Translations under genes and position numbers: made by a program | Shown here: positions 2,635-18,586 of the stretch, piece by piece | Position numbering within the stretch: the first letter of the stretch is position 1 | Layout: each line of letters starts with the position of its first letter | IMG/VR virus record: IMGVR_UViG_3300048883_000120 | Span: 1 to 20,605 of that record | Reading direction: 5' to 3' (one strand) | From: a virus | Length of the DNA stretch: 20,605 nucleotides | Notes under the pieces: generated by a model | What the model was told of the DNA's origin: nothing | Seen by the model: only the letters and a program-made list of their open reading frames with translations | Databases searched by the model: none

Positions 2635-4449
2635 CTAGAATGTACCGCAATCGATTACTACGTTCACACCGTCAATAGTACCATGAGTCATAACCCCAGC
2701 GTCATTGATTTGCATTTGAGCAGAATTCCCAAGATGCGTAGACGAAAAGAACTCAGTATGACCATCTACTGATAATGTAGAGTATAGAGTAGTTGCATTA
2801 GTAACCTCTAACGTATCATTTAGAGTAGTTGCTTTAGTAACATCTAATGTATCACTTAGAGTAGTTGCTTTAGTAACATCTAATGTATCACTTAGAATAG
2901 TCGATTTGGTAACCTCTAACGTATCATTTAGAGTAGTTGCTTTAGTAACATCTAATGTATCACTTAGAGTAGTTGAGTTAACAACATTTAAGGTATTATT
3001 TAGAGTAGTAGCATCAGTGACATCTAATGTATCATATAGAGTAGTTGATTTAGTAACATCTAATGTATCACTTAGAGTAGTTGAGTTAACAACATTTAAG
3101 GTATTATTTAGAGTAGTAGCATCAGTGACATCTAATGTACCCGATAGAGTAGTGTTTACCGCTTCAATATCACCCGATAGGTATACATTGTTGAACTGAA
3201 CATCACCCCAAGGGGCAGAATAGTTTTCACTTGATACTGATGTGTCTGGTTTGAATGAGAATCTTGAGGTTTGTGTGTCGTAACCGAAGAAACCAGTTTT
3301 AACCGTACTACCATCCCCATAATCGAAATTCACACCACGATCAAGACCATCACCCGCAACTGTTGAACCATCACCGACTTTAATGACAGGATCATTTAAA
3401 GTAGTAACAGTAGAGTTGACTGAAGTTGTAGTACCATCAACTGTTAGGTTACCTGAAATAATTGTATTACCCGTAACATTAAGGTCATTTCCGACATTTA
3501 ATGTATCTGCGATATCCACATTACCTGAAGTAACATCAATACCACCAGTATATGTAACATCAGATGCAGTGACATATAGTTTATTAGTTACATTTGATGT
3601 GCTGATATTAGCAGTAGTGATATTAGCAATAGGTGAAGTGATTTGAGCAGTGATGTACATGCCACTATCATCAACACGAACTTCTTCATTACCCTTTGCA
3701 TAAAATCTTAAGGTATCATCATCAGTTGGGGAACCAGCAAGCGTAGTTTCCGCAGAGATGTATGTATCTTGGTCAACATCAACTACACCGCCGACACCTG
3801 TCCAGTTACCTGAAACGACACCTTCAAACCTATTAGTGGTTTCATTGTATCGCATTGCACCATTAGTTGCGGCTGTTGGTGTAGGTCGTGTTGATTCTAA
3901 ACCCTTTGGAATAACTAATACAGTATTTGTATCAATTGTAACCTTACCGGTACCATTTGGTCTCAGGACGATATCACCGTCCGTATTAATTGCTGATGTA
4001 GTGTTACCTGCCGTTTTAAGATTACCTAAAGTAGATCCTAAAGTGACAACAGTAGTTCCTGATACGGTGAAGTTACCTACAACAGCAAGTGTAGATGCTT
4101 GTACTTGTACTTGACCTGTACCGTTAGGATTTAATATTAAATTCCCATTTGCATTTGTGGTTGAAACCGTATTAGAATCTAATGTAATATTATCTACATT
4201 TAAAACATCAATCTTCTTAGAAGCATCGACTAATATTGCCGAGTTCTTTGTTAATGTTCCTAGATTATGATCTAATTTATCGGTAAAATACTTACCACCG
4301 ATGATTTCTGATACAGATGATGCACTATCATCACCTATGAATAATTTGTCTGACATGAAGGAATACGCCATTTCACCTACTGCTAACGACCCGTCTATGG
4401 GAGCTACAGTGGTGCTGGAATATTTAGTTTTTATTATAGTACCGGACAT
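2635..4449 (-). CDS. Repetitive tail-fibre-like virion protein (604 aa)
   Basis: Starts at ATG 4449 behind a good ribosome binding site (AGGAGA at 4457-4462, 7-nt spacing). Residues 20-50 carry the fibre N-terminal module (SLAVGEMAYSF, then DKLFIGD, then EIIGG), comparable to that of the fibre gene at 1-2490. Two cassettes of the form NT.S..N.NG..L.PNGTG.V follow at about 90-180 and match those of the protein at 6706-12402. A middle segment has GNLTVDGTTTSVNSTVTTLNDPVIKVGDG, of the sort seen in many marine phage fibre proteins. Residues 433-564 are eleven 12-residue repeats of the type TTLxDTLDVTKA. The C-terminus is short (IDGVNVVIDCGTF). No enzyme or signal peptide is seen. The repeats suggest a trimeric beta-rich shaft. 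The gene is followed by a strong terminator, so it is the last of its transcript. Confidence 0.85.
   Translation of the reverse strand: MSGTIIKTKYSSTTVAPIDGSLAVGEMAYSFMSDKLFIGDDSASSVSEIIGGKYFTDKLDHNLGTLTKNSAILVDASKKIDVLNVDNITLDSNTVSTTNANGNLILNPNGTGQVQVQASTLAVVGNFTVSGTTVVTLGSTLGNLKTAGNTTSAINTDGDIVLRPNGTGKVTIDTNTVLVIPKGLESTRPTPTAATNGAMRYNETTNRFEGVVSGNWTGVGGVVDVDQDTYISAETTLAGSPTDDDTLRFYAKGNEEVRVDDSGMYITAQITSPIANITTANISTSNVTNKLYVTASDVTYTGGIDVTSGNVDIADTLNVGNDLNVTGNTIISGNLTVDGTTTSVNSTVTTLNDPVIKVGDGSTVAGDGLDRGVNFDYGDGSTVKTGFFGYDTQTSRFSFKPDTSVSSENYSAPWGDVQFNNVYLSGDIEAVNTTLSGTLDVTDATTLNNTLNVVNSTTLSDTLDVTKSTTLYDTLDVTDATTLNNTLNVVNSTTLSDTLDVTKATTLNDTLEVTKSTILSDTLDVTKATTLSDTLDVTKATTLNDTLEVTNATTLYSTLSVDGHTEFFSSTHLGNSAQMQINDAGVMTHGTIDGVNVVIDCGTF
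2758..3153 (-). repeat. Eleven tandem 36-bp coding repeats (12-aa units)
   Basis: In-frame repeats encode TTLxxTLxVxxx units: residues 433-564 of the 604-aa fibre protein. There is a higher-order pattern. Units 1-3 and 4-6 are near copies of one another (endings VTDA, VVNS, VTKS or VTKA), so a 108-bp block was duplicated. Units 7-10 alternate VTK and VTN endings. Unit 11 is diverged (TLSVDGH). Confidence 0.9.
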
Positions 4450-4520: not shown

Positions 4521-4733
4521 GAAACTACCTCCAATGACTGATAATTTTGCGTTATCTATATCAGGACGTACTTTATATGTACCTGATGCAGTGTCCCACA
4601 TTATAATTGAGCCATCTTCTCGTAATGATGTATCTACATCAATTAGTTCACTTAATCGGTGCGAAGAAGTTTGTGTAATACCAGTTACGGTAAGTGTGTT
4701 CGATGATTTTGAGAAACTTCCTACAATGCTCAT
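4518..4733 (-). CDS. Small virion-associated protein (71 aa), fibre-neighbour type
   Basis: ATG at 4733 overlaps the stop of the preceding gene by four bases (ATGA) and has its own ribosome binding site (AGGAGA, 4742-4747, 8-nt spacing). The protein is a compact beta-type sequence: a Ser/Thr-rich start, then LSELIDVDTS, DGSIIMWDTASGTYKV, and an ending in IGGSF. The pattern of a DVDTS stretch followed by DGSI...D..SG.YK is one I associate with segments of marine T4-like phage fibre proteins, so it may be a freestanding module of that kind. No catalytic motif is visible. Coupling to the 115-aa gene and position ahead of a fibre gene suggest a minor baseplate or fibre-attachment component. Function is inferred from position only. 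Confidence 0.75.
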   Translation of the reverse strand: MSIVGSFSKSSNTLTVTGITQTSSHRLSELIDVDTSLREDGSIIMWDTASGTYKVRPDIDNAKLSVIGGSF

Positions 4734-5077
4734 CTAGTTAATCTCCTAGTGATTCCTGCAGTAATCTCCACTTGACCTTCTACTATACGTGTGACATTTC
4801 CTGTAGAGGTTTCGCGAAGTTCGACATCGTATTGATATCGGCCGGGTTTTATATTATTAGAAACTGAAGAATTCAATTTCATCGAAACTATGCCCGCTGA
4901 CTCTGATATTATAGAGACGTTGAAGTCATATTTAGTTGAGGATGTGTGATGTCTTCGCATTTGAGAGTGTGCAGTATAACCCGACAAATTGACAATATTG
5001 TCATGGTTATCCCTTACCGTGATTTCTTCAGTAAAATCAGAACCCTGATCTATACTTAAATTTGCATATATTGCCAT
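4730..5077 (-). CDS. Small beta-sandwich virion protein (115 aa)
   Basis: ATG at 5077 lies 33 nt downstream of a late promoter octamer. The ribosome binding site is weak (GTGGA). The sequence has the profile of a single immunoglobulin-like or BppU N-terminus-like domain found beside fibre genes in many phages: residues 8-15 IDQGSDFT, then DNIVNLSGYTAHSQMRR, GIVSMKLN, KPGRYQYDVEL and a final strand RIVEGQVEIT. No cysteines and no catalytic residues stand out. Such proteins commonly act as adaptors or receptor-binding-protein anchors; that role is inferred here. It is coupled by a 4-nt overlap to the 71-aa gene. Confidence 0.8.
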   Translation of the reverse strand: MAIYANLSIDQGSDFTEEITVRDNHDNIVNLSGYTAHSQMRRHHTSSTKYDFNVSIISESAGIVSMKLNSSVSNNIKPGRYQYDVELRETSTGNVTRIVEGQVEITAGITRRLTR

Positions 5078-5089
5078 GTCGTTAATTCC

Positions 5090-5099
5090 ACTTATAAGT
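5090..5099. repeat. 10-bp palindrome ACTTATAAGT in the leader of the 115-aa gene
   Basis: Perfect palindrome 11 nt downstream of the late promoter octamer, so near the expected transcription start and just ahead of the ribosome binding region. Short and AT-rich, so it could be chance. Confidence 0.25.
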
Positions 5100-5109
5100 T
5101 GACTATATC

Positions 5110-5117
5110 TATTTATA
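5110..5117 (-). promoter_or_regulatory. T4-type late promoter ahead of the 115-aa gene
   Basis: Exact TATAAATA on the minus strand, in the 44-nt gap between the stop of the upstream gene (5122) and the ATG at 5077. It would give a separate late transcript for the 115-aa, 71-aa and 604-aa genes, ending at the terminator at 2563-2592. Confidence 0.7.
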
Positions 5118-5121
5118 TAAT

Positions 5122-5613
5122 TTAGATACCGTCAAGTAGATAGTCACCTAATACAGTAACAATCCATGTATTTGGTTTTTTGACTTCTTTGATCTCATGT
5201 GTCCCTCCCAAATGTTTAAACCAAATAGCATCACCGGAGTTAAGGGTATATTCTTCATCATTGACCATAATCTTCTGATTATCTGTCAGACTCAAAGAAA
5301 AGAATGAAAACGGATTTTTAGTATGTTCCCAATGGGTTATCCTATTCAGTTTATCACCTATATCAAGATGTAATACATTAGATGCTATTAGACCATCCCA
5401 CACTTCATCCCCGAAAGTCTTACGGAGTTCCGAGTCAAATTCTTTTGTAAAATCTTTGTGTTTGAGATATGAGTACCGAGATAATTGTTCATATGTATCA
5501 TGAACCTCTGTTCTCAATCTTACACCTGAGGCTACCCAGAGATTGGGAATATCTCGAATTATCGATTTACATTGTTCTGGGGTTTCGTATTTTCGGAACA
5601 CCTTTATTGTCAT
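5122..5613 (-). CDS. Degenerate 2OG-Fe(II) oxygenase-like or cupin-fold protein (163 aa)
   Basis: I choose ATG 5613 because AAAGGA (5622-5627) sits 8 nt ahead of it and it forms an ATGA overlap with the upstream oxygenase gene. ATG 5622 would add three residues but abuts that ribosome binding site. The C-terminal half looks like a double-stranded beta-helix: LHLDIGDKLNRITHWE, then IMVNDEEYTLNSGDAIWF, then THEI. Spacing from the LDIG strand to H94 matches that of the canonical neighbour (INRY to H104). The predicted metal site would be H94-x-E96 with H139, a Glu in place of the usual Asp. The Arg that binds 2-oxoglutarate after the distal His is absent (TWIVTVLG). It may be a cupin-like enzyme, use another cosubstrate, or be a non-catalytic partner. 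Confidence 0.7.
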   Translation of the reverse strand: MTIKVFRKYETPEQCKSIIRDIPNLWVASGVRLRTEVHDTYEQLSRYSYLKHKDFTKEFDSELRKTFGDEVWDGLIASNVLHLDIGDKLNRITHWEHTKNPFSFFSLSLTDNQKIMVNDEEYTLNSGDAIWFKHLGGTHEIKEVKKPNTWIVTVLGDYLLDGI

Positions 5614-6146
5614 AATAACCATCCTTTAGGGCCGAATAGTAATATCAGTGAGTACCGAGTGTCTCCTACGATAGGATTAACCCGATGTGTTGCTCGTACA
5701 TTTACCATTCTAATTGCAGTACCTATCCTATCTTCATAGAATATCTCTTTACCCTTATATATATGCGAATATCCCTGACCTGAGTTCTCGGTTAGTGGTA
5801 TGACTATATTATCTAAAAAACCTTGCCTATCGGTATGAATGGGAATCCCTTCCCCCTCCTTATACCTATTGATGAGAATTTGATCAAGTGAACATCCAGA
5901 CATTGTGGATCCAATAGTCTCGACCATGTCTCTAATATTTACCGGTATAGAATGATCCATAATAGAACAATAATGTCCATGATTATCTGAATAACCAGTA
6001 GTACCCATATTCGTGAAGTACTCATTACGAGCAACCCACGAATATGATGGAAGTTTTAGTACTTCCTCAAGTATTTTCTGAACCTCACATCTAGGAACTT
6101 CAAGTATTTCTATTTCAGATGCCACTAATCTTTCAATCCACTCCAA
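5610..6146 (-). CDS. 2OG-Fe(II) dioxygenase (about 178 aa)
   Basis: Predicted 2-oxoglutarate- and Fe(II)-dependent oxygenase. The core motif is complete: H104-x-D106 in IPIHTD, distal H154 in RATHRVNP, and R164 in DTRYSL, which would bind the 2-oxoglutarate carboxylate. The preceding strand LINRYKEGEGI and the following FLDNIVIPLTENSGQGYSHI fit the prolyl-4-hydroxylase or AlkB-type jelly roll. The length suits a minimal catalytic domain with no fused targeting domain. Marine T4-like phages often carry such genes among structural genes, but their substrates are mostly unknown. The start is uncertain: TTG 6146 gives the longest form and overlaps the 184-aa gene by 22 nt; GTG 6125 would overlap its stop by one base (TAGTG). 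Neither has a strong ribosome binding site. It is coupled to the next gene by ATGA. Candidate substrates are fibre residues, host surface or nucleic acid; none is shown. Confidence 0.88.
   Translation of the reverse strand: MEWIERLVASEIEILEVPRCEVQKILEEVLKLPSYSWVARNEYFTNMGTTGYSDNHGHYCSIMDHSIPVNIRDMVETIGSTMSGCSLDQILINRYKEGEGIPIHTDRQGFLDNIVIPLTENSGQGYSHIYKGKEIFYEDRIGTAIRMVNVRATHRVNPIVGDTRYSLILLFGPKGWLL
5622..5627 (-). promoter_or_regulatory. Ribosome binding site that decides the start of the 163-aa gene
   Basis: The minus strand reads AAAGGA, with an 8-nt spacer to ATG at 5613. It directly touches the alternative ATG at 5622, which would leave no spacer, so the downstream start is preferred. 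Confidence 0.65.
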
Positions 6147-6679
6147 GGGCCGACAACTTCGCGAAGTCCACCAGCAAACGCATGATCCAAATCTTTCAAC
6201 ATTCTTTCTTTTGATTCATAGTCAAACTGATCTGATTTTTCATACGCCATTTTGTTTGCATTGTTCTGGGTTCTGACCATACGTATAAACTCACTCATTT
6301 CTTTAAGATCTTTAGAGTTAGACCCCATCGCAAGTAATGCATCACTTATGATATTAAGTTGGTGATAATAATCATACTTGTTGATTATTCTAGAGTGCGC
6401 AGTTTTGTCAATATCTATTTCAGATATTTTATCTAATTGAGTAGAGTGATCAACGACCCCACCATCTTCGTAGGTTCCAACCCAACCTTCCTTGGATACA
6501 TCCAAGTCAGGTATTCTTTTCCACATAAAAGTATCATCCCCAGAGTCCATTGCGGAACCATCTGAACTAACTATACCTAAATAAGTGCCATTCAATTTAT
6601 TAAAGAATAAGTCATAAGAATTAGTTCCCTCTTCTTCAAACTCTTTTCTTACATCTAGTCCTATTTGTATTAAATCCAT
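6125..6679 (-). CDS. Uncharacterised protein next to the repetitive fibre gene (184 aa)
   Basis: ATG 6679 has a moderate ribosome binding site (TAAAGGC, 6689-6695). I do not recognise the family. The N-terminal half (LFFNKLNGTYLGIVSSDG, then DDTFMWKRIPDLD, then GWVGTYEDGGVVD) looks beta-rich. The C-terminal half is helical and charged (KYDYYHQLNIISDAL, KEMSEFIRMVRTQNNANKMAYEKSDQF) and ends with GGLREVVGPW. There are no cysteines, signal peptide or membrane segment. It sits 26 nt after a giant fibre gene and overlaps the oxygenase gene. A beta head plus helical tail directly downstream of a fibre is the usual place for a fibre assembly chaperone, so that is my leading guess, with an oxygenase partner as the alternative. 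Both are inferred from position. Confidence 0.7.
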   Translation of the reverse strand: MDLIQIGLDVRKEFEEEGTNSYDLFFNKLNGTYLGIVSSDGSAMDSGDDTFMWKRIPDLDVSKEGWVGTYEDGGVVDHSTQLDKISEIDIDKTAHSRIINKYDYYHQLNIISDALLAMGSNSKDLKEMSEFIRMVRTQNNANKMAYEKSDQFDYESKERMLKDLDHAFAGGLREVVGPWSGLKD

Positions 6680-6705
6680 AATTGTATTGCCTTTATCCTA
6701 TATGT

Positions 6706-9700
6706 TTAAACGCCAAAGTTGGCACTATATCCTGTAGCAGATGTCATAATGTACATCGTATATGTTGAATGGTATTGATATGATGTACCACCATTACCAC
6801 GATGAGAAGTACGATATTGATGTCGCACTATCAATAAATCCCCCTTCACTAAAGCAATCGAATTTCTCGCAGCTGTAAACGCTTTATCTTTAGTGGTGTT
6901 CCATCCTAATATGGTATACATATTAACATATACTGTCTTACCATCCGTGTGAGGGCTGGTGTGTGACCGTACCCACGAAGTGGTCGCGACACGCGTGTCA
7001 TTAGAAGAACTGGCAGGTGTTGTAGCATAAGCAGTGGCAAGTGTGGTACTACCGGTAACCTTTAATGTTTTAGACATGGTCACATCGGACTGAATATCAA
7101 CTTTATTAGCACCTGATATCTTAAAGATACCATCTGTTGTTACGATATCAGTTTGATCTAAATGTGTTCTACCATTAACATTTAATACTTTCGGAATATA
7201 AACCTCACCAGTGCCATGCGGTGTTATACTTAAAGTCCCATTAGTATTAGTGGTTGTTATGGCATTGCCCTCAAACTTTATGGTATCGAGATATGTTCTA
7301 CCACTAACATTTAATGCTTTAGACATCTCCACATTTGACTGAATGACCATTTTATTAGTGCCTGATACCTTGAAGTAACCATCGTCTGTGCTGATATCAG
7401 TCTGATCTAAATATGTTCTACCATTAACATTTAATACTTTGTTAATATAGACCTGACCAGTGCCATTAGGTGTTAGATATAAATGACCATTAGTATTAGT
7501 AGTTGATATGGTAGTGCCATCAAACTTCATGTTATCTAGATATGTGATACCATCAATATCAACAGTACCATCAATGTCCATATTTGCGTCAATGTCCATG
7601 GTATGGACATCAATGTCGATATTCTTGGCACCTGATATCTTAAAGATACCATCTGCTGTGCTGATATCAGTCTGATCTAAATATGTTCTACCATTAACAT
7701 TTAATACTTTGTCAATATAGACCTGACCAGTGCCAGTAGGTGTTAGATATAAATGACCATTCTTATTAGTAGTTGATATGGTATTGGCATCAAGTCTAAT
7801 GTTATCGACATCTAATCTACCGTAAATATCAACAGTACCATCAATGTCCATGTTAGCATCAATGTCAACGCCATAAGCACCAGATATCTTGAAGCTACCA
7901 TCTGCTGTGTTGATGTCAGTTCGATCTAGATATGTTCTACCATTAACATCTAATGTTTTAGACATGGTCACATCTGACTGAATGTCAACTTTATTAGTGC
8001 CTGATATCTTGAAGATACCATCTGTTGTTACGATATCAGTTTGATCTAAATGTGTTCTACCGTTAACATTTAATACTTTTGGAATATATACGTATCCAGT
8101 ACCATGAGGATTTAAAGTAAGACTCCCATTAGTATTAGTGGTTGATATCGTATTGACATCAAACTTCATGTTATCTAAATATGACGCACCATCAACATCT
8201 AATATACCATTAATATCCAGTTTGCTAGTTTTAACCCAGCCAGTGCCATTAGGTGTTAATACAATATCTCCATCAGTGTTATTTGCGGATATAGTATTGA
8301 CATCAAACTTCATGTTATCTAGATATGTGGTACCATCAACATCTAATGTACCATTAATATCCAGTTTGTTAGTTTTAACCCAGCCAGTGCCATTAGGTGT
8401 TAATATAACATCTCCATCAGTGTTATTTGCGGATATAGTATTGCCGTCAAACTTAAGGTTATCGAGATATGTGATACCATCAATATCGACAGTACCATCA
8501 ATGTCCATGTTTGCGTCAATGTCCATGTTAGAATCAATGTCAACTTTATTGGCACCTGATATCTTGAAGATACCATCGTCTGTGTTGATATCAGTTTGAT
8601 CTAGATATGTTCTACCATTAACATTTAATACTTTTGGAATATAGACCTGACCAGTGCCATGCGGTGTTATACTTAAAGTCCCATTAGCATTAATAGTTGA
8701 TATGGTATTGGCATCAAGTCTAATGTTATCGACATCTAATCTACCGTCAATATCAACAGTAGCATCAATGTCCATGTTAGAATTAATATCAACTTTATTA
8801 GCACCAGATATCGTAAAGATACCATCTGCTGTGTTGATATCAGTTTGATCTAAATATGTTCTACCATTAACATTTAATGTTTTAGACATGATCACATCTG
8901 ACTGAATGTCAACTTTATTAGCACCTGATATCTTGAAGATACCATCTGCTGTGTTGATATCAGTTTGATCTAAATGTGTTCTACCGTTAACATTTAATAC
9001 TTTCGGAATATAAACCTCACCAGTGCCATGCGGTGTTATACTTAAAGTCCCATTAGTATTAGTGGTTGATATGATATTGCCATCAAGTTTGATGTTATCT
9101 AAATATGACGCACCATCAACATCTAATGTACCATCAATATCCAGTTTGTTAGTTTTAACCCAACCAGAACCATTAGGAGTTAATACGATATCACCATCAG
9201 TGTTATTTGCGGATATAGTATTGCCATCAAGTTTGATGTTATCTAAATATGACGCACCATCAACATCTAATGTACCATTAATATCCAGTTTGTTAGTTTT
9301 AACCCAACCAGTGCCATTAGGTGTTAATACAATATCACCATGAGTGTTATTTGCGGATATAGTATTGGTATTAAACTTAAGGTTATCGAGATATGTGATA
9401 CCATCAATATCAACAGTACCATCAATGTCCATGTTTGCGTCAATATCAACTTTATTAGCACCAGATATCTTAAAGATACCATCTGCCGTGTTGATATCAG
9501 TTTGATCTAGATATGTTCTACCATTAACATTTAAGTGGTTATTCACTGTAACCGAATTACCGACAGACATTACAATATTACGAGCTGCGGATATCTTAAC
9601 ATCACCATTAGATGCTAGATTAGATATGGTATCACTATCGAATTTGAGTTTGTCGAGATATGTGGTACCGTCAATATCAACATTACCATCAACGTCCAAT

Positions 9701-12402
9701 GTACCCTTGATATGCACTTTAGTGAATTTGACCCAACCAGTACCATGAGGTTGTATTATTAAGTTCCCATTAGTATTAATAGTTGATATAGTATTATCAA
9801 TTAATCTAATGTTGTCTATCTGAAGTTCAGAACCAGTTATTTTCTCATTTACCTTAAGTGAATCATTGATCGTGACAAGACCATCAGTGGATCTAATGGT
9901 CAATCTTTCAGTACCACCCTGTAATCTATCATTATTTACTGTATCTTGTTTAAAGGTAAATACTGCAAAGTTATTGATGAATTCGTCAGTAGTACCAGAC
10001 AGAATTTGTCTTTCTATGGACATGTCCGACTTACGCGTATAAGAATGACCTACCTTACTGTATTTTAATGATGCTTGTGTTTGCGACAAGTTAAGGTCAC
10101 CGTACAATGTATTGGCACCATCTCTTCGGAGATACGTAGCAGTCTCTGGATTTTCTGCGTCAGCAAGTTCTGAGTTTGCCCATAGATCATTAATCGCACC
10201 CGTCATAGAAATTGCAGTTACATCATTAGTAGAATACTCAACGGCTCTTAAATCTTCTTTACCAATCTTATTATATACGTCATAGAAACTAATCTTCGAG
10301 ATTTCAGCGTATGCACCACCGGATGTGTACTGTTTAAATTCGGTGAATACTGTCTCGAGTTCCTGTGTTTCCTGATTTACAACATCGTAGTCGATCCCCC
10401 AGTAAACAACCTCAGACCATATATGTCCAGCTGGTAGTGTATATCCTTTTAGGATATGTAGTTTACCATTATAGTTATAATAACGACCATCACCAGTATG
10501 TGGATTTAATGGACGGTCTGAGGCATCCCTTGGATAATTAAGCAAATGATCCTCATTTTGAGAATCAAATGAGACTTTACGTAGTGTCCATCCCCGAGAA
10601 CCCATTATATGATGTTCTTCTGCGATCTGCCAGTTACCTAGATATGCTTGTTTAAACTTTGCTTGAGTACCGTGTATGTTATCATCAATAACCTTAACCG
10701 CAGTAGATAGATCAGTAATACTACGTTTAGTACCATCTCCACCATTCACATAATCCTGATCAAATAAATCAATGACCAGATCCAGATCACCGACTTCACT
10801 GTCCAACTCATTGACCGCAGATGTTAAATCTTTTGATGTGGTGGTTAAGTTAGCAACAGTGCCAATGTCAGTTTCATGTTCATTGATCGCACCTTTAATG
10901 GTTTGTGCAGTAGTTAGTAAGGTTTCATTCCCTATTTCGGCATCTAACTCATTGACCGCAGGTGTTAAGATTTTTGCTGTGGTGGTCAAGTTTTCTACTT
11001 TACCGATATCACTTTCATGTTCATTGATCGCGGAAGTGACCGTAGTAGATTCTGTTTCTAAAGTATCATTACCTTGGAAATTATCCATTTGGTTTACGGC
11101 ATCGGTAATAGTCTCGAATGTAGACTTAGGTTTTCCCGTAATTTTAGATGATAAGATGTCAACATTACCTTGAAATTCATCTACTTGACGCAGACCATCG
11201 GTAATAGTATCGAATGTAGACTTAACTCCATTAACTCCATCCTTAATTGATTTGATATTAACATCACCTTGAAGTAGATCGACTTGTTGTAGACCATCAG
11301 TAATGTTAGTGAATGTTGATTTGTTGCCCGTGGTTTTAGCAACTTTGATATTGACATTACCTTGAAGGTCGTCAAGTTCATTAACCGCATGAGTTATAGA
11401 TTGGAAAGTTTCTTTATCCCCTGTATTAATCCCTTGAGTAACAATGTCCCCAAGATGATTGTCTGCGAGAGATGCTACTTGGGCTTTAACATTAGTACCA
11501 GTTTTATTGGTCTTTATGTTTTCATTACCTTGGAGTAGATCGACTTGTTGTAGACCATCAGAGATATTAGTAAAGGTTATCTTGTTACCTTCAGTACCTT
11601 TATCTACGTCAATTGAGACATTACCTTGAAAGAAATCGACTTGATCTAAACCATCAGAGATTGATTTATACTTGATCTTATTATTGGTGTTGATACCTTG
11701 AGTGACAACATCCCCAAGATGATGTTCTATAGCAGATGTCATCTGTTTCATTACTGGTTTATCCAGTAATATATTAACATCACCTTGATAAGCATCAAGT
11801 TCATTGATGGCATCAGTGTAGTTATTTTGTACCGCAGGTGTCATTGGTATTGCAGATGGTTCCATTGACATATTAATAACAGTCAATGGAGTATGGTATG
11901 GAGACACACCCGCATCTTCTCTAAGTAATGATACTTCATCAGTTAGATTTGCAGTAGGGATACTGTTCGATTTGGTAGTGTGAGATAGACTGCCTTTACC
12001 TTCAACAATTCTAGTTCCCTCGACTGACATTACTTGTAGATAAAGATCCTGAATACCAGTAGTACCACCTACGAAGTGACCTTCTACTACAATAATATCT
12101 CCTTCAGTATAACCTAAACCACCACTTATCACGTTAATGTCGTAATCCATTGAATCTGAATGACGAACAGTTCTCAGTGTGCCATATTCGTCCTTTTCAG
12201 TACGAGTGGTGACCACAATATCTATTGTTAGATTCGCATCAGTTCCAATAAAAAGATTATTCGACCGTGGTCTAATATCCGTATATGTCTGTTCCGCATG
12301 TTTAGATAAAACATCAGCATCACCTACACCAGTAGAAACTTTATTAGTATCTTCTCTCCATTCATTGAACGAATGAGTTTGTTCTACAATTACCTTTGCC
12401 AT
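6706..12402 (-). CDS. Giant modular repetitive tail-fibre-like protein (1898 aa)
   Basis: ATG 12402 directly follows the stop of the 83-aa gene and has a good ribosome binding site (GGAGAG, 12410-12415). Residues 1-30 contain a fibre N-terminal signature (HSFNEWREDTNKVS). A GGLGYTEGD...GGTTG loop follows near 95-120. Residues about 200-540 are coiled-coil-like repeats (ITDGLQQVDLLQGNVNIK; LTPAVNELDAEIGN). Residues about 555-865 are non-repetitive (AYLGNWQIAEEHHIMG, YYNYNGKLHILKGY). Residues about 868-1781 are a long array of two cassettes: nine copies of RTYLDQTDINTADGIFKISG and eleven of NTIS.NN.DG.I.LTPNGTGWV. The C-terminus carries the common fibre motif NDTRVATTSWV and a unique tip of about 80 residues rich in Tyr, His and Thr. 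I infer a very long trimeric fibre whose length is set by the cassette number. No catalytic motif is visible. Confidence 0.85.
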   Translation of the reverse strand: MAKVIVEQTHSFNEWREDTNKVSTGVGDADVLSKHAEQTYTDIRPRSNNLFIGTDANLTIDIVVTTRTEKDEYGTLRTVRHSDSMDYDINVISGGLGYTEGDIIVVEGHFVGGTTGIQDLYLQVMSVEGTRIVEGKGSLSHTTKSNSIPTANLTDEVSLLREDAGVSPYHTPLTVINMSMEPSAIPMTPAVQNNYTDAINELDAYQGDVNILLDKPVMKQMTSAIEHHLGDVVTQGINTNNKIKYKSISDGLDQVDFFQGNVSIDVDKGTEGNKITFTNISDGLQQVDLLQGNENIKTNKTGTNVKAQVASLADNHLGDIVTQGINTGDKETFQSITHAVNELDDLQGNVNIKVAKTTGNKSTFTNITDGLQQVDLLQGDVNIKSIKDGVNGVKSTFDTITDGLRQVDEFQGNVDILSSKITGKPKSTFETITDAVNQMDNFQGNDTLETESTTVTSAINEHESDIGKVENLTTTAKILTPAVNELDAEIGNETLLTTAQTIKGAINEHETDIGTVANLTTTSKDLTSAVNELDSEVGDLDLVIDLFDQDYVNGGDGTKRSITDLSTAVKVIDDNIHGTQAKFKQAYLGNWQIAEEHHIMGSRGWTLRKVSFDSQNEDHLLNYPRDASDRPLNPHTGDGRYYNYNGKLHILKGYTLPAGHIWSEVVYWGIDYDVVNQETQELETVFTEFKQYTSGGAYAEISKISFYDVYNKIGKEDLRAVEYSTNDVTAISMTGAINDLWANSELADAENPETATYLRRDGANTLYGDLNLSQTQASLKYSKVGHSYTRKSDMSIERQILSGTTDEFINNFAVFTFKQDTVNNDRLQGGTERLTIRSTDGLVTINDSLKVNEKITGSELQIDNIRLIDNTISTINTNGNLIIQPHGTGWVKFTKVHIKGTLDVDGNVDIDGTTYLDKLKFDSDTISNLASNGDVKISAARNIVMSVGNSVTVNNHLNVNGRTYLDQTDINTADGIFKISGANKVDIDANMDIDGTVDIDGITYLDNLKFNTNTISANNTHGDIVLTPNGTGWVKTNKLDINGTLDVDGASYLDNIKLDGNTISANNTDGDIVLTPNGSGWVKTNKLDIDGTLDVDGASYLDNIKLDGNIISTTNTNGTLSITPHGTGEVYIPKVLNVNGRTHLDQTDINTADGIFKISGANKVDIQSDVIMSKTLNVNGRTYLDQTDINTADGIFTISGANKVDINSNMDIDATVDIDGRLDVDNIRLDANTISTINANGTLSITPHGTGQVYIPKVLNVNGRTYLDQTDINTDDGIFKISGANKVDIDSNMDIDANMDIDGTVDIDGITYLDNLKFDGNTISANNTDGDVILTPNGTGWVKTNKLDINGTLDVDGTTYLDNMKFDVNTISANNTDGDIVLTPNGTGWVKTSKLDINGILDVDGASYLDNMKFDVNTISTTNTNGSLTLNPHGTGYVYIPKVLNVNGRTHLDQTDIVTTDGIFKISGTNKVDIQSDVTMSKTLDVNGRTYLDRTDINTADGSFKISGAYGVDIDANMDIDGTVDIYGRLDVDNIRLDANTISTTNKNGHLYLTPTGTGQVYIDKVLNVNGRTYLDQTDISTADGIFKISGAKNIDIDVHTMDIDANMDIDGTVDIDGITYLDNMKFDGTTISTTNTNGHLYLTPNGTGQVYINKVLNVNGRTYLDQTDISTDDGYFKVSGTNKMVIQSNVEMSKALNVSGRTYLDTIKFEGNAITTTNTNGTLSITPHGTGEVYIPKVLNVNGRTHLDQTDIVTTDGIFKISGANKVDIQSDVTMSKTLKVTGSTTLATAYATTPASSSNDTRVATTSWVRSHTSPHTDGKTVYVNMYTILGWNTTKDKAFTAARNSIALVKGDLLIVRHQYRTSHRGNGGTSYQYHSTYTMYIMTSATGYSANFGV
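7062..9800 (-). repeat. Long in-frame array of two alternating fibre cassettes
   Basis: Cassette A (nine copies) centres on LDQTDINTADGIF and has a 40-residue, 120-bp period when tandem. Cassette B (eleven copies) centres on P-N/H-G-T-G and has a 48-residue, 144-bp period when tandem. Examples of tandem B are the near-identical segments at about 8226 and 8370, and at about 9150 and 9294. A stretch near 7150-7262 is almost identical to one near 8961-9070. The pattern indicates repeated unequal exchange in this gene. Confidence 0.9.
10790..11810 (-). repeat. Coiled-coil-like coding repeats in the N-terminal part of the giant fibre
   Basis: Degenerate in-frame repeats with two flavours. One has ITDGLxQVDxxQGNVNI units separated by variable inserts. 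The other has L(T/K)xAVNELDxEIG alternating with AINEHExDIG. The first recurs with a HLGDxVTQGIN insert twice. Regular Leu/Ile/Val spacing suggests a trimeric coiled-coil stalk. Confidence 0.8.
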
Positions 12403-12661: not shown

Positions 12662-15600
12662 CTAGTCCGTTAGTCCGTATGTAGCAATTGCTCTAAGGTT
12701 TTTACATCTAGGAACTTTTGCTTTATTAGTAGAGGTGAATACGATTTTAACTGCGTATACACTAAAATCCCCGAGTATATTATCATTTACAGTACCATCA
12801 AAGTTTGTGGTGTCCGAATCAATAAAGTACTCATACTCGACAAATTCCTCAGGATCATTGGTTGATACTACATCTGTATTTTCAACTTTATCATGTATTC
12901 CATGCCATGCAGGTAATGCAGGTGCGAGATGTGACCATGCTTTATCAGAAATCGCATCTATATCCACCCCAACTTTATAAAATATTTCTACTTTTGCGCC
13001 CACTGGTTGATGAATATCTAAGTATATATTCAGTGAATTTGCAGGTTCTTCTAACTGGATATTCTTAGTGACATGTTTACATTCTACCGATCCTACATCA
13101 TTCTCATCAGGTACTATAGAGTCTTCTTCAAAAAACAGATTCATCTCATTAGTACCATCTAATGGATACTCTCCAGATTTTTCAACAGGGGAGTTGATTT
13201 TATTCTGAACACAAAGTATAGATAATCTATCGGTATCAATAATAGGAGATATCATGTCATTTAGTGAAGACATTTCTGCTTCTAAGATGAAATCTTGCGA
13301 GTGCCATCTGATAGATGCTGACTTATTCAGAGCAGTATCTTGACCAATCTTTATCTCCCGTTTATCAGATAAACCTAGAAATGGTACAGTATCATTATAT
13401 TGTCTTGTAGTGTTACCATACATTAGTCTTGCTGACCATTTAATATCAGTACCTACAAAGTTGAGATGTTGCGCAAATATAGAGAATAGTGAATAGTCCA
13501 CATATTGTAGAACTCTTGATCCAGCCAGACCTGCTCTACCAGATGATGTCGCTTTTACACCATTCTTTAAAGTAATATCATAAGAATCTTCTTCTATGTT
13601 TGATACCTCAAAAGAAAGGATATCACCTAAAGTTTTACCCGTTGTTGACATATCTATCTCACCGGTGTTAGAGAACTTAGACAATTTAACACCATGATAT
13701 TCAACTTCATCTAAATTACCAGTGGAACCATGTCGTTCATTCATCGCGAATGCTACGACAGAAGGATTACCAGCATTCTCTGATCCACCCGATATGAAAC
13801 CGTGATTCTTATGCTGGACTCTAACTACTGAAGAATTCTTAGTAAATGTGAGTGCATTAGTTTTTAATTGAACGATTTGTGATCCGGTATCCGCAGAAAA
13901 CCAAGGGTTAGTAGTGATACCATGATCTCCGGTATCAAGTTTATACTTCGACTTCCATTTTCCAATTGCAGATGGTGGTGTAAATATCGCAACCTTGTTA
14001 ACATCATTATCGAACTTTGCACGATTAATCGTGAATTTAAGATCAGTATTTTGATCAGCAGTCCATGTAGATGAATTTTGAGATTTGAATAGAACCCCAA
14101 GATACGGTTGTTTGTTAATGGTGACCCCCGTCTCAATATCAGTCTTGTTCATTTCAGCAGCCCATACATTATAATCGGTCGAGTTTGCAAGTAGAACGAA
14201 ACAGTACTCAACACCTGCTTGTAGATATACTGGTGCTGCAAAGTCAAATGGGGTTTTAAGAGAAGTCACTTGTTGATTAGGTGATACATGAACCTCAGAT
14301 GCGGCTATTGTTACTGTTGAGCCCGGTAATATAATATTGGATGGAATACCGTTCTGCATTTCTCTAAGTTGCATTGTGACCGGAGCCCCTATAATATCTG
14401 ACAATATGGAATCATCATCTGCCATGTAGACTTCATTTGGTTTAGACTTAAAGTATACATCTATTGATGTGATACTTAAACCATACGGACATTCAACAGG
14501 ATCAATCAAAAATGATTGTGCTAATGGATCCCACCATTTAACATAACTTTTGGTCTTTACAGTCGTAGTGAAGTTTTTTTCTTCGGATACTACATTAGTA
14601 GTGACCATAGGCAATTTAGTAGAGTATATAGTTCCCTGCACGGTTTGAATTATACCTGTGGACTGATATAAACTTTCCGCAGTAGTTGTCTCGATATCTC
14701 TATTATGATTTGGATTATCAGACACTCTGAATAAACGCGATCCACCTTTAAAGTCCAATGCTTCAGTGGTGAAACTGTCAGGGAATTCATCGTAATCCAT
14801 ATCCTTAGTTATATTTCCCCAAACACCGTCTCCATCTTTATATAACCATCTCTCAGCCGCTTTACCTAATGCGGGGTTTGTGTTAGGTACGAAAAATGAT
14901 CCTACTAAAGACCCCTTCGCATCAGTAATCAGTGGTGTCGGTAATTGTGGATGCATATTAACACCCTCGACATCTTTCCACTGTTTAGCACTTTCTGTCC
15001 AGTGCGTAAAATCATATTTCAAACCGTTTGAATTGAAAATGTCACCTGTAAAACTGTTCGCTTTTGACACTTCAGAATAGAAGTTACGACCTGTTGAGTA
15101 ACGATCAACACCCCAATTTTCAATCGCGCATTTTTCAATCTCAGCCATAGTGTCTGAGTAGTCCTGATACCGATGTTCTTGTCTACAGTATGTAGATACG
15201 TCAATACCATCAAAGTTTGCGTATACTCTTGTATTAGGTTTAAGACCCGACACTTTAAACGATATAGGTCTTGATCTCATGTAAGGTGCGAATCGAATAT
15301 CCACAACTCTATCCCCAAAATCATCCTCATAAGTGTAATCTTCGACAAATGTCTCAATACCGTATCTTTCTTTTACACCAGTAGTTGTTGTTGCGAGTGT
15401 GTATCTATCCGATGCTTTACCACCACCACCTCGAGCATGTCCGAGAGTATTTACGGTTTTAATCCATTTGGAGGATTGGGTTGAAGATTTGACAGTCCAT
15501 GATTGATATTCAGTACCAAGTATGTCAGTTGCATCGATGATTCCCATCATAGCATCATATATACCATCATTACCGACAATCAGATCAGGCATTCTATCAG

Positions 15601-18586
15601 TATCTTTCCACTCATCAGAACTTGGTGATAACTCTAAAGAACCTTCCCAGTTAAATACATCATATGGGTTAACATTAATTGCAGAAGACGCAAGATGTTG
15701 ATCTTTAAATTCTACAATGCTATATGGTAATGTGACTAAAGAAGAACCCACATTCTTTTGAGCTATATTACTTGTGTTCCCACTATATGCAGATGGATCC
15801 CACTGTAGATTGACATTCTTCTGAACAAATTTAGGTCGAATCTCTTGTCTACGTTTATCAATACCCATTTTGAATTCAGGTGTAGTTAAATTCGCCATCA
15901 GCAGATCTGAGAATCCATCAGCAAGAAACCCTAGTTTGAATTTATCAAATCCATTTCGATCTTTAATGTCCCTCGAATTGGTTTCAAGTTCTAGTAATGA
16001 TAATGTAGCATTTCTCTCAAGTTTATTAATTCTCTTATCAAGGGTACCAATATCTTTCATCGTATATCTACGGTTATTGATATACTTTGCTCTAACATCG
16101 GAGGCATTATGAGTATATGCGGGAATATATATATCATAAAGATGCATTGTATCCGCAGGTGTTGGTGCAGATGGTGCCTCTAGTGAAGGAATTCCTTCTA
16201 CTACAGTAAAATTGCCCTGAACATCTAAGACAATCTTATCTGTTCTTGGTAGATAGTACGAAAATGAAGTAGTGAACAACGTGTGTGGTGTAGGACAACG
16301 TTGTGTGTTCTGAATATCCTTATTGTGTGGATGGTATGGTCTAAAGTCAATGCAGTTAGATAGACGTATTCCATTATACTCTCGATTACCAAACTCAGAG
16401 TCTGGGTACGAATCCGCAGTAAAGAAATCACCATTCCCTGACCATTCATAGTATGTGTACGATATCTCGAGTGTACCTACGAAATCGAATGGACTCTTCT
16501 TGATTATACGAGAATTAGTGTAAAAATTGTCTCTTTGTCCGTCATCTAATCTAAAATGTGCAGTTATATCAGTCCCTGTATCTTTCTCAATAATAGAATT
16601 GATTGCAATAATATCAGGTTTACCCAAGATGATAGTTTTCTTCGACTTATCAGCCGTAGAAATCGTAATTGTTTCTGGTGAAGAACTTAGGGTCTGTCGC
16701 AATGACTTCTTTCTTGGTTCCAAGGTCTGCCCAGTTTTAGATGCTTTGTTAACTTTGGCGTATAAGTAAAATTTATGACTACTACTAAGAGTACCACCCG
16801 TTTTTACCTTGATAGTATCGACCCCTTCAGTGATCAAGCTGGTGACCGTCAGGAGATCATCGGTGGTACTATTGAGTAAGTATACCGAATCTTCGGAGTT
16901 GTCTTGAAATGCGTATGACGTAGTAAAAGTAGCCGTATTCTCACTGACACTATTCGAGAGTATATATTCGGATACATTATAATCAAAGTCGAATTGATCA
17001 CCTGACTTATGATCGTAAATTGCTTCGTGAGGAAGTGTATATAATAGAGTGTTACTTTTAGTCATTTTTGGTGATGGACTACCAGTTTCATCATCAAAGA
17101 ATCCTACAAACCCATTACCCTTTATGCAAGTAACCTCACCAAAACCATCCCAATCAACATCATAGATATAGAATCTCGCCATTTCAGCGTTTACTTTTTC
17201 GACATAACGAACCCTTACTGACCCCAACCGGTGGGCATCATTGGTGTTGTTTTTGTCTGCATATAGATACAGTTTATGTTCACCAGAGGTATCAGGGAAG
17301 CCTTTACTACCAGTACCAGTCATATTAACAGTAATAAAGTTACCCAGTTCCAATCTGGATTGATGACCTTCAAAATGCTCTGAGTGAATTTTGTCTTTGA
17401 CAAGTACACCCTCTTTATCTCTTGACCTATTTAAGGTAATATGGGAAGGAGCCGATTTCTCTATATGATGACCCTTTATTGATGCAGATCCACCAGATAA
17501 TGTTGCAGTGAATTTGGTTTCATCATATGGATTAACAAGACCAGTTTCAAGGTCGTAATTAGGTATATGTTTTGATGTAGACATCGTAAAAGGTCTTATC
17601 GAATACGAACCCGACTCATTAAACGACTGTTTAGCAAGTGCTTCACCCAGAACGCTATAATCTGCACTTCTAGTTTCTTTGACTACTTCACCACGAACAA
17701 CCCTTGATAGTAACACAAAGTCGGATGTAGAAGTGGTCTTAGTAACTTTAGAAGATTGTTTGTGAAGTTTAGTTTTAATTTGATATCTATGGGCGCCTGG
17801 CGCTGCATAGTTATACGTACCGAGTGCATTATCATTTAATGATACATCATCAGTTGATGTTGAGATAGATTCGTCAATTAAAAGACCAATGTCCGCAGTA
17901 GGTGTTTGAGAGTATTTGTCTAATATCACATAGTCTCTTTTAACGATGACCATATAACCTTTAAGAAAATAGATACCATCGTCAAGGAACCCGATAGACC
18001 CCTTACCAATTACAGGAATATCTCTATCATTGTTTGACACATCATTCTGGGTAGAGACAACCATAGTACCGGTGACACCATCGATGGCACCTTTAATATC
18101 ACGAAGAAATTGTCCTTCCCTGAAACGAGTAATAGACTCACCACCACCTGTGGTTGGTGTATCTGAAGAGATGTACTCAAGATAGATAGTATCTGTTTCA
18201 GTCGGATATTTTGCTTTAGATATTGCTACAACTTTTGCTTTGAGTTCTGAAGATGCTTCATCACCTGAAGTTGCTATCAATTGAACACCTATAAGATCTT
18301 CAGAAACTTCTAATGATGAAGCATCCGAATTGATCTTGATATAATCAACATTAGTTGATATAACGCAATGGCCGGGCAGTACTAAACTACCTTCTTTAAA
18401 GAAATGTTTAGATAGTGAGGTGACTTGATTCTGAAGAATTGATTGAATCTGAGTCAACTCTCTCGCCTGAACTGCATGTCCAGGCCTGAATAGTATTTGA
18501 TGATATTTCTCTTTAGGTGTTAATCCATCAGAGGTTTTAATATTATAATCATCATAATACGGTTTTGTGTTTAAATTAACGGCCAT
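12662..18586 (-). CDS. Giant virion structural protein with DUF4815-type N-terminus (1974 aa)
   Basis: ATG 18586 has a good ribosome binding site (AAGGA, 18596-18600, 9-nt spacing) and lies 15 nt after gp8. Residues 8-72 match the N-terminal signature of phage DUF4815 proteins: PYYDDYN, then FRPGHAVQARELTQIQSILQ, then HFFKEGSLVLPG. Residues about 1345-1560 carry the equally typical block WWDPLAQSFLID...CPYGLSITSIDVYFKSK...PVTMQLRE...GVEYCFVLLANS...FKSQNSSTWTADQN. Near 1770-1800 is FILEAEMSSLNDMISPIIDTDRLS, and the C-terminus is KAKVPRCKNLRAIATYG. These proteins are baseplate-proximal tail components; no biochemical activity is known to me. Position after gp8 is where T4 has genes 9 and 10, so it may join fibres to the wedge. 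It is long for the family as I know it. No signal peptide or catalytic motif is visible. Confidence 0.85.
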   Translation of the reverse strand: MAVNLNTKPYYDDYNIKTSDGLTPKEKYHQILFRPGHAVQARELTQIQSILQNQVTSLSKHFFKEGSLVLPGHCVISTNVDYIKINSDASSLEVSEDLIGVQLIATSGDEASSELKAKVVAISKAKYPTETDTIYLEYISSDTPTTGGGESITRFREGQFLRDIKGAIDGVTGTMVVSTQNDVSNNDRDIPVIGKGSIGFLDDGIYFLKGYMVIVKRDYVILDKYSQTPTADIGLLIDESISTSTDDVSLNDNALGTYNYAAPGAHRYQIKTKLHKQSSKVTKTTSTSDFVLLSRVVRGEVVKETRSADYSVLGEALAKQSFNESGSYSIRPFTMSTSKHIPNYDLETGLVNPYDETKFTATLSGGSASIKGHHIEKSAPSHITLNRSRDKEGVLVKDKIHSEHFEGHQSRLELGNFITVNMTGTGSKGFPDTSGEHKLYLYADKNNTNDAHRLGSVRVRYVEKVNAEMARFYIYDVDWDGFGEVTCIKGNGFVGFFDDETGSPSPKMTKSNTLLYTLPHEAIYDHKSGDQFDFDYNVSEYILSNSVSENTATFTTSYAFQDNSEDSVYLLNSTTDDLLTVTSLITEGVDTIKVKTGGTLSSSHKFYLYAKVNKASKTGQTLEPRKKSLRQTLSSSPETITISTADKSKKTIILGKPDIIAINSIIEKDTGTDITAHFRLDDGQRDNFYTNSRIIKKSPFDFVGTLEISYTYYEWSGNGDFFTADSYPDSEFGNREYNGIRLSNCIDFRPYHPHNKDIQNTQRCPTPHTLFTTSFSYYLPRTDKIVLDVQGNFTVVEGIPSLEAPSAPTPADTMHLYDIYIPAYTHNASDVRAKYINNRRYTMKDIGTLDKRINKLERNATLSLLELETNSRDIKDRNGFDKFKLGFLADGFSDLLMANLTTPEFKMGIDKRRQEIRPKFVQKNVNLQWDPSAYSGNTSNIAQKNVGSSLVTLPYSIVEFKDQHLASSAINVNPYDVFNWEGSLELSPSSDEWKDTDRMPDLIVGNDGIYDAMMGIIDATDILGTEYQSWTVKSSTQSSKWIKTVNTLGHARGGGGKASDRYTLATTTTGVKERYGIETFVEDYTYEDDFGDRVVDIRFAPYMRSRPISFKVSGLKPNTRVYANFDGIDVSTYCRQEHRYQDYSDTMAEIEKCAIENWGVDRYSTGRNFYSEVSKANSFTGDIFNSNGLKYDFTHWTESAKQWKDVEGVNMHPQLPTPLITDAKGSLVGSFFVPNTNPALGKAAERWLYKDGDGVWGNITKDMDYDEFPDSFTTEALDFKGGSRLFRVSDNPNHNRDIETTTAESLYQSTGIIQTVQGTIYSTKLPMVTTNVVSEEKNFTTTVKTKSYVKWWDPLAQSFLIDPVECPYGLSITSIDVYFKSKPNEVYMADDDSILSDIIGAPVTMQLREMQNGIPSNIILPGSTVTIAASEVHVSPNQQVTSLKTPFDFAAPVYLQAGVEYCFVLLANSTDYNVWAAEMNKTDIETGVTINKQPYLGVLFKSQNSSTWTADQNTDLKFTINRAKFDNDVNKVAIFTPPSAIGKWKSKYKLDTGDHGITTNPWFSADTGSQIVQLKTNALTFTKNSSVVRVQHKNHGFISGGSENAGNPSVVAFAMNERHGSTGNLDEVEYHGVKLSKFSNTGEIDMSTTGKTLGDILSFEVSNIEEDSYDITLKNGVKATSSGRAGLAGSRVLQYVDYSLFSIFAQHLNFVGTDIKWSARLMYGNTTRQYNDTVPFLGLSDKREIKIGQDTALNKSASIRWHSQDFILEAEMSSLNDMISPIIDTDRLSILCVQNKINSPVEKSGEYPLDGTNEMNLFFEEDSIVPDENDVGSVECKHVTKNIQLEEPANSLNIYLDIHQPVGAKVEIFYKVGVDIDAISDKAWSHLAPALPAWHGIHDKVENTDVVSTNDPEEFVEYEYFIDSDTTNFDGTVNDNILGDFSVYAVKIVFTSTNKAKVPRCKNLRAIATYGLTD

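Follow-up and report, generated by a model that had tools for sequence, protein, structure and literature searches.

Gene organization of the window

The window, by which we mean the whole stretch of DNA analyzed here, is a 20,605-base virus record that contains a T4-like structural cluster of minus-strand genes. Because its gp8-like protein is about 26% identical to the counterparts in cyanophages and in the Methylophilales phage Melnitz, we take it for a distant marine-type myovirus. Three small genes in this cluster, here called X, B, and C, are the subject of this analysis. The genes needed to follow the text are these:

18602-20149, minus strand: gp8-like baseplate wedge protein
12662-18586, minus strand: DUF4815 protein
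6706-12402, minus strand: tail fiber of 1898 aa, directly upstream of X-B-C; an ORF with repeated fiber sequence and weak similarity to Bactofilin and phrog_15769
6125-6679, minus strand: X, 184 aa, with a beta-rich N-terminal domain and a helical domain; proposed Tfa-like fiber-tip chaperone and homologue of PHIKZ136 (phrog_13209, E 4e-20; AlphaFold2 pLDDT 84)
5610-6146, minus strand: B, 178 aa from a TTG start; predicted active-type 2OG-Fe(II) oxygenase and homologue of PHIKZ137 (PF13640; phrog_2297, E 7e-11)
5122-5613, minus strand: C, 163 aa, double-stranded beta-helix paralogue of B (hhalign, AlphaFold2, Foldseek); proposed non-catalytic subunit and homologue of PHIKZ138
4730-5077, minus strand: LtfC-like protein
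between 4730-5077 and 2635-4449: ORF of 71 aa
2635-4449, minus strand: second fiber

A preliminary description of this DNA, made from its letters alone, had placed B and C as a coupled pair between two fiber genes, with B overlapping a 184-aa gene of no assigned role, and this arrangement holds in full. The large fiber gene ends 26 nt upstream of the start of X. X and B overlap by 22 nt if B begins at its TTG, or by 1 nt (TAGTG, on the stop codon of X) if it begins at the GTG at 6125; the latter start would give a protein of 171 aa, with all residue numbers 7 lower than those used here. B and C are joined by a 4-nt ATGA overlap, and the ATG of C at 5613 is preceded by AAGGA, 8 bases upstream. 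Scans of the region for promoters and terminators returned matches at chance level.

The surrounding genes have features of their own. Long repeats, spaced by about 927 bases and 88% identical across some 1.2 kb, lie within the fiber gene at 6706-12402 and make it a likely spot for length variation or for assembly collapse. The second fiber contains repeated 'TTLxDTLDVTKA'-like units and does not end in the G-N-G tip discussed below. Just past the cassette, the product of 4730-5077 is an LtfC-like beta-sandwich that could be a second fiber-assembly factor (phrog_3304, 'L-shaped tail fiber protein assembly', E 7e-26; phrog_1084, E 7e-28).

Protein B carries a complete oxygenase site

The residues expected of a 2OG-Fe(II) oxygenase are found in B at the following positions, with counts referring to distinct homologues; one sequence is cut, hence 32 rather than 33 for the two distal residues:

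5829-5837, minus strand: H104-T-D106, predicted iron ligands (33/33)
5685-5687, minus strand: H154, predicted third iron ligand (32/32)
5655-5657, minus strand: R164, predicted 2-oxoglutarate-binding Arg (32/32)

N93, Y95, and G98 are likewise present in 33 of 33. R164 sits about 10 residues after the distal His, the spacing expected for the basic residue that binds the 2OG carboxylate. A site that is conserved in every homologue is not a chance run of letters, and the H-D-H-R set first read from the window, with its numbering counted from the TTG, thus stands. When 21 homologues were searched against Pfam, 15 matched PF13640 (best E 1.1e-5) and 13 matched PF13532; with 19.6 bits, the window protein stays under the Pfam cut-off of 31.2. 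The best sequence match in the PDB is ALKBH8 (3thp, E 1.9e-4), over 36 residues only. Judged by its sequence, B is a 2OG-Fe(II) oxygenase with a complete and conserved H-D-H-R set, and catalysis is implied by the fact that no homologue departs from it in the iron ligands, the Arg, or the N-x-Y pair.

Protein C, a paralogue of B without the active site

When profiles built from 19 C and 21 B sequences were compared by hhalign, they matched over 133 columns with a probability of 95.4 and an E of 1.7e-8, by which C is a paralogue of B. The fold has been kept: the AlphaFold2 model of C (pLDDT 86.8, pTM 0.82) shows the eight strands of a double-stranded beta-helix, so the dioxygenase-type fold proposed for 5122-5613 is predicted with confidence. 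With this model as query, the best Foldseek match in the PDB is the Pseudomonas putida prolyl-4-hydroxylase bound to EF-Tu (4iw3, E 7e-7), and the list of matches also contains PHD2 and the TlxIJ heterodimer.

The active site has fared differently. Two features need to be distinguished here:

5326-5334, minus strand: H94-W95-E96, the altered metal site claimed earlier; only W95 is conserved
5197-5199, minus strand: H139, the sole retained triad-like residue (29/30)

The preliminary description had read an H-x-E...H metal site in C, aligned with that of B by its spacing. These letters are present (H94-W-E96...H139), but among 30 distinct homologues H94 occurs in the window alone (1/30) and E96 in 3, whereas W95 is found in 29 and S45, Y47, and W150 in all 30. 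The profile alignment sets W95, not H94, opposite H104 of B and sets H97 of C opposite D106, at a position that varies freely among homologues (G, D, N, R, and others). The metal site as first read is therefore rejected. The description was right that the Arg that holds 2-oxoglutarate is missing: opposite R164 stands T149, commonly Leu in homologues, next to the invariant W150, and C has no 2OG-binding Arg or Lys.

Taken together, the profile alignment, the homologue counts, and the model indicate that C has kept the fold and lost two of three iron ligands, the first two, along with the 2OG-binding Arg; no conserved iron triad is left. Because C almost always has Trp where B has its first ligand, and retains no triad residue other than the distal His, it has the look of a non-catalytic subunit, as far as alignments and a predicted structure can tell. 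That C might nevertheless be an active enzyme, using an H-x-E...H site with another cosubstrate, is extremely improbable, given that the motif is private to the window protein and that a Trp occupies the ligand position. Among the three options offered originally (a heteromeric enzyme, an enzyme with an inactive partner, and two enzymes with different cosubstrates), the last rested on that private motif and finds no support; the second fits best with a C that is homologous to B and has kept the fold and lost the metal and 2OG residues.

X, B, and C occur as a unit

In isolate phage records, tblastn found B in 73, X in 72, and C in 71, all but one of them Pseudomonas phages. Seven isolates were inspected, namely phiKZ (PHIKZ136-138), OMKO1, 201phi2-1, HPP-Temi, Milchi, Astolliot, and QdP_Psa3, and in all of them X, B, and C adjoin one another behind fiber genes. 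The cassette occurs in phiKZ-like jumbo phages, in T4-like phages (Milchi, Astolliot), and in a 115-kb Pseudomonas myovirus. Among viral contigs, single-protein searches found only one IMG/VR contig, 99.8% identical to the window across 12.4 kb, and a broad alignment of seven B proteins contained too little conserved sequence for a profile search; degenerate DNA patterns were therefore used, one for B alone and one for the X tail alone, followed by tip sequences alone. Wherever B or X is matched strongly, its partner genes lie beside it, except at loci where the stored stretch or contig stops short of them, and all three are present on about 28 viral contigs, some of them apparently isolate genomes that are also in IMG/VR. 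When bacterial genomes were scanned for the tail motif of X, the 28 matches were all attributable to chance, and none marked a cassette.

The gene order is X-B-C except at two loci, L067 (X-C-B) and L049 (X-B-C-B), so the linkage is kept even where the order is not. Pairwise distances, compared among X, B, and C as matrices, show correlations of r 0.93-0.94 (permutation maximum 0.43, n=2000), as expected of a unit inherited together.

The fiber tip ahead of the cassette

The fibers that precede X-B-C share a short domain at their C-terminus:

6724-6978, minus strand: C-terminal tip domain of the 1898-aa fiber, residues 1809-1893 (HMM match; common to fibers ahead of X-B-C)
6790-6798, minus strand: G-N-G loop of the tip, residues 1869-1871, a possible modification site (G67, N68, and G69 invariant or nearly so in the tip alignment)

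This domain of about 85 residues forms the end of the fiber immediately preceding X, or of one fiber in the adjacent array. It is short and divergent, and some phiKZ-type fiber paralogues do not have the G-N-G. Neither Pfam nor the PDB offered a family for the domain, no PHROG match was convincing, and tblastn with the short tip domains against annotated phages gave nothing useful. A model built without the window tip still detects that tip (E 4e-4 for 1000 sequences); left-out tip groups of other lineages are detected too, some phiKZ-type paralogues only weakly.

A search of IMG/VR with the tip alone yielded 14 loci, all relatives of tips already known ahead of the cassette. X is the next gene in 14 of 14, and X, B, and C are all present in the 13 that are long enough; five contigs (L109-L113) had not turned up earlier. 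Phage EL keeps gp106 and gp108, which match PHIKZ139 and 140, the genes after the cassette, and has neither the tip nor X, B, or C; the corresponding region of Melnitz has none of the four either, these being few controls, with few loci examined for a tip that lacks X-B-C. We looked for a cassette-free sister phage of Astolliot or of QdP_Psa3 and found none.

X, B, and C are thus an inseparable triad behind a fiber with a G-N-G tip, an obligate four-part linkage with no exception in contigs long enough to tell. B and C occur together wherever the contig allows, and always with X, which is not the mere neighbor that it had been taken for: it does adjoin B, and it is the obligate third member in all loci. 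The suggested connection with fibers is much stronger than first seen, because the pair is never found without X and always follows one type of tip; a host receptor, named earlier as the other possible target, has gained no support.

Protein X, a proposed fiber-tip chaperone

In the AlphaFold2 model of X, the beta-rich N-terminal domain is followed by the helical domain. The C-terminus bears a motif of its own:

6146-6172, minus strand: C-terminal motif of X, GGLREVVGP in the window, GG[LV]HExxGP in the family (34 homologues)

In this tail, G170, G171, E174, and G177 are found in 34 of 34, H173 in 33 (the window has Arg), and P178 in 32, the Pro being replaced by Ala in 201phi2-1 and at locus L017. 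The tail is among the best-conserved parts of X despite the poorly ordered C-terminus. The exceptions in the window, 201phi2-1, and L017 rule out a universal hydroxylation of its Pro or His.

X has no match in Pfam: among 23 members of its family, none hit a chaperone family or a Tfa (Caudo_TAP) family at E 0.1. Comparison with solved folds gave nothing significant, 7ypx_a appearing at E 4.7; among viral proteins, the first structural match is the 201phi2-1 homologue and the second, a weak one, is a 'tail fiber assembly protein' (E 0.046). The X gene sits directly downstream of the fiber in the window and at other loci. In 201phi2-1, the fiber proteins gp216-220 are annotated as detected in virions by mass spectrometry and gp221-223 bear no such note, on the annotation only; in phiKZ, 131-135 are labeled as tail tip or structural (133-135 structural) and 136-138 have no such label. 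This placement, the domain layout, and the apparent absence from virions support the reading of X as a chaperone, and we propose that it is a Tfa-like one acting at the fiber tip.

Proposed role of the cassette

We propose that the cassette is a fiber-tip maturation set, in which X is a Tfa-like chaperone and B with C a hydroxylase acting on the tip or on X, and we put the probability of this reading at about 50%. X would grip the C-terminal tip of the fiber during folding and trimerization. While X holds the tip, B and C would hydroxylate one of its residues, perhaps in the G-N-G loop; C, a duplicate of B without the active site, would pair with B and hold, position, or recognize the substrate. 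A residue of X would be a less likely target. X, B, and C would then depart, and would not be packaged. That B and C form a heterodimer is suggested by their co-occurrence, their overlapping genes, and their correlated distances. The Asn of the G-N-G loop is the best-conserved candidate site, and to name it is a guess. That the fiber is hydroxylated at all we would rate somewhat short of even odds. Its recurrence behind one type of tip in unrelated phages hints that the tips with which phages grip bacteria may be finished chemically; the wider proposal, that several lineages of tailed phages including phiKZ hydroxylate their receptor-binding fiber tips by means of an enzyme and its inactive paralogue delivered by a fiber-specific chaperone, is similarly tentative.

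One might instead look for the substrate in X itself, with B and C hydroxylating its GG[LV]HExxGP tail and thereby switching its hold on the fiber on or off. A tail so highly conserved at a poorly ordered C-terminus, in a protein encoded by the immediate partner gene in all loci, would suit such a role; the classic targets are not universal, however (His to Arg in the window, Pro to Ala in 2/34), and only G, G, E, and G are invariant, so that we regard this as unlikely. The invariant iron ligands, Arg, and N-x-Y of B, which imply catalysis, also weigh against the suggestion that B and C catalyze nothing and serve, together with X, as structural subunits of a chaperone. The fact that C is always kept despite its lost site, and that all three genes are linked to fibers, would be accounted for in this way, but on balance it is quite improbable.

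Bacterial 2OG oxygenases with protein substrates do exist, EF-Tu and ribosomal proteins being examples of such substrates (4iw3; PMC4295552), so B and C could modify a host protein or receptor made during infection; yet the linkage tracks a single type of fiber tip, and the same cassette is found in unrelated phage lineages, which makes a host target very unlikely. That B demethylates nucleic acids in the manner of AlkB, or is some other enzyme of DNA, might be suspected from the PHROG label 'DNA endonuclease', the N-x-Y...H-x-D pattern, the short ALKBH8 match, and the PF13532 matches of B. Against this, B lies in a fiber operon in all loci seen and never in a replication or repair cluster, 2OG-FeII_Oxy_3 is the better match, C resembles protein prolyl hydroxylases, and no nuclease motif was seen in B; a role on nucleic acids is accordingly very doubtful.

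Comparison with known systems

B shares the H-x-D...H...R set and the N-x-Y pair with the prolyl-4-hydroxylase, 2OG-FeII_Oxy_3, and Oxy_2 (AlkB-like) oxygenases (P. putida P4H 4iw3, PHD2, ALKBH8), and C has the same fold. Unlike P4H, PHD2, and ALKBH8, B and C are very short (about 160 aa), phage-borne, and tied to a tip and to X, as an obligate pair of which one member is an apparently dead paralogue. A precedent for an oxygenase that employs an inactive paralogue as its partner is provided by the fungal TlxI/TlxJ and TlxA/TlxC, heteromeric 2OG oxygenases in which the inactive paralogue is without the 2OG-binding Arg (PMC12141560). The likeness lies in the combination of one active and one inactive paralogous oxygenase, whereas the Tlx pairs make natural products, and C has also lost iron ligands and would serve an enzyme whose substrate is probably a protein.

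The Pam3 chaperone gp25, with a beta domain and helices, binds the fiber tip and was undetected in virions (PMC9608196). With chaperones of the Tfa type (Mu Tfa, Pam3 gp25 7YPX, Alteromonas A5 gp9, V22 gp27), X shares its position after the fiber, a size of about 160-200 aa, the order of beta domain then helices, and not being noted in virions; it differs in having no sequence match and only a weak structural one, in its unique GG[LV]HExxGP tail, and in the two oxygenase-fold genes alongside. Genes for 2OG-Fe(II) oxygenases are common in cyanophages, where they have been read as serving metabolism or DNA repair (PMC3037559). These are akin to B in superfamily and in belonging to T4-like marine phages, but they are multi-copy, and none is described in that paper within a fiber-tip triad.

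Literature searches on PHIKZ137 and on fiber hydroxylation found nothing. The superfamily of B and the fold of C are known, and their combination with X and a fiber tip is absent from the literature searched; hydroxylation of a fiber tip by such an enzyme pair would be a kind of fiber maturation not described there. If it takes place, phiKZ-like and T4-like phages would rely for host binding on a tip modification that requires oxygen, iron, and 2-oxoglutarate, which would affect the production of recombinant fibers and the oxygen dependence of infection. PHIKZ136-138, three genes of a model phage that are unannotated or mislabeled, gain a joint function that is testable, and even without chemistry the cassette is a fiber module that stays together across unrelated phages.

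Annotation of related loci

Proteins of the B family are labeled 'DNA endonuclease' in phrog_2297 and in many phiKZ-like records (e.g., 6510-7004 of locus L003). Since the family carries a complete 2OG-Fe(II) oxygenase motif, this label is probably a propagated error. In Pseudomonas phage HPP-Temi (locus L007), the C gene at 4914-5399 on the plus strand is unannotated, and a reverse-strand ORF at 4887-5408 is annotated in its place. At locus L049 (3167-4836), two different B genes flank a single enlarged C of 221 aa.
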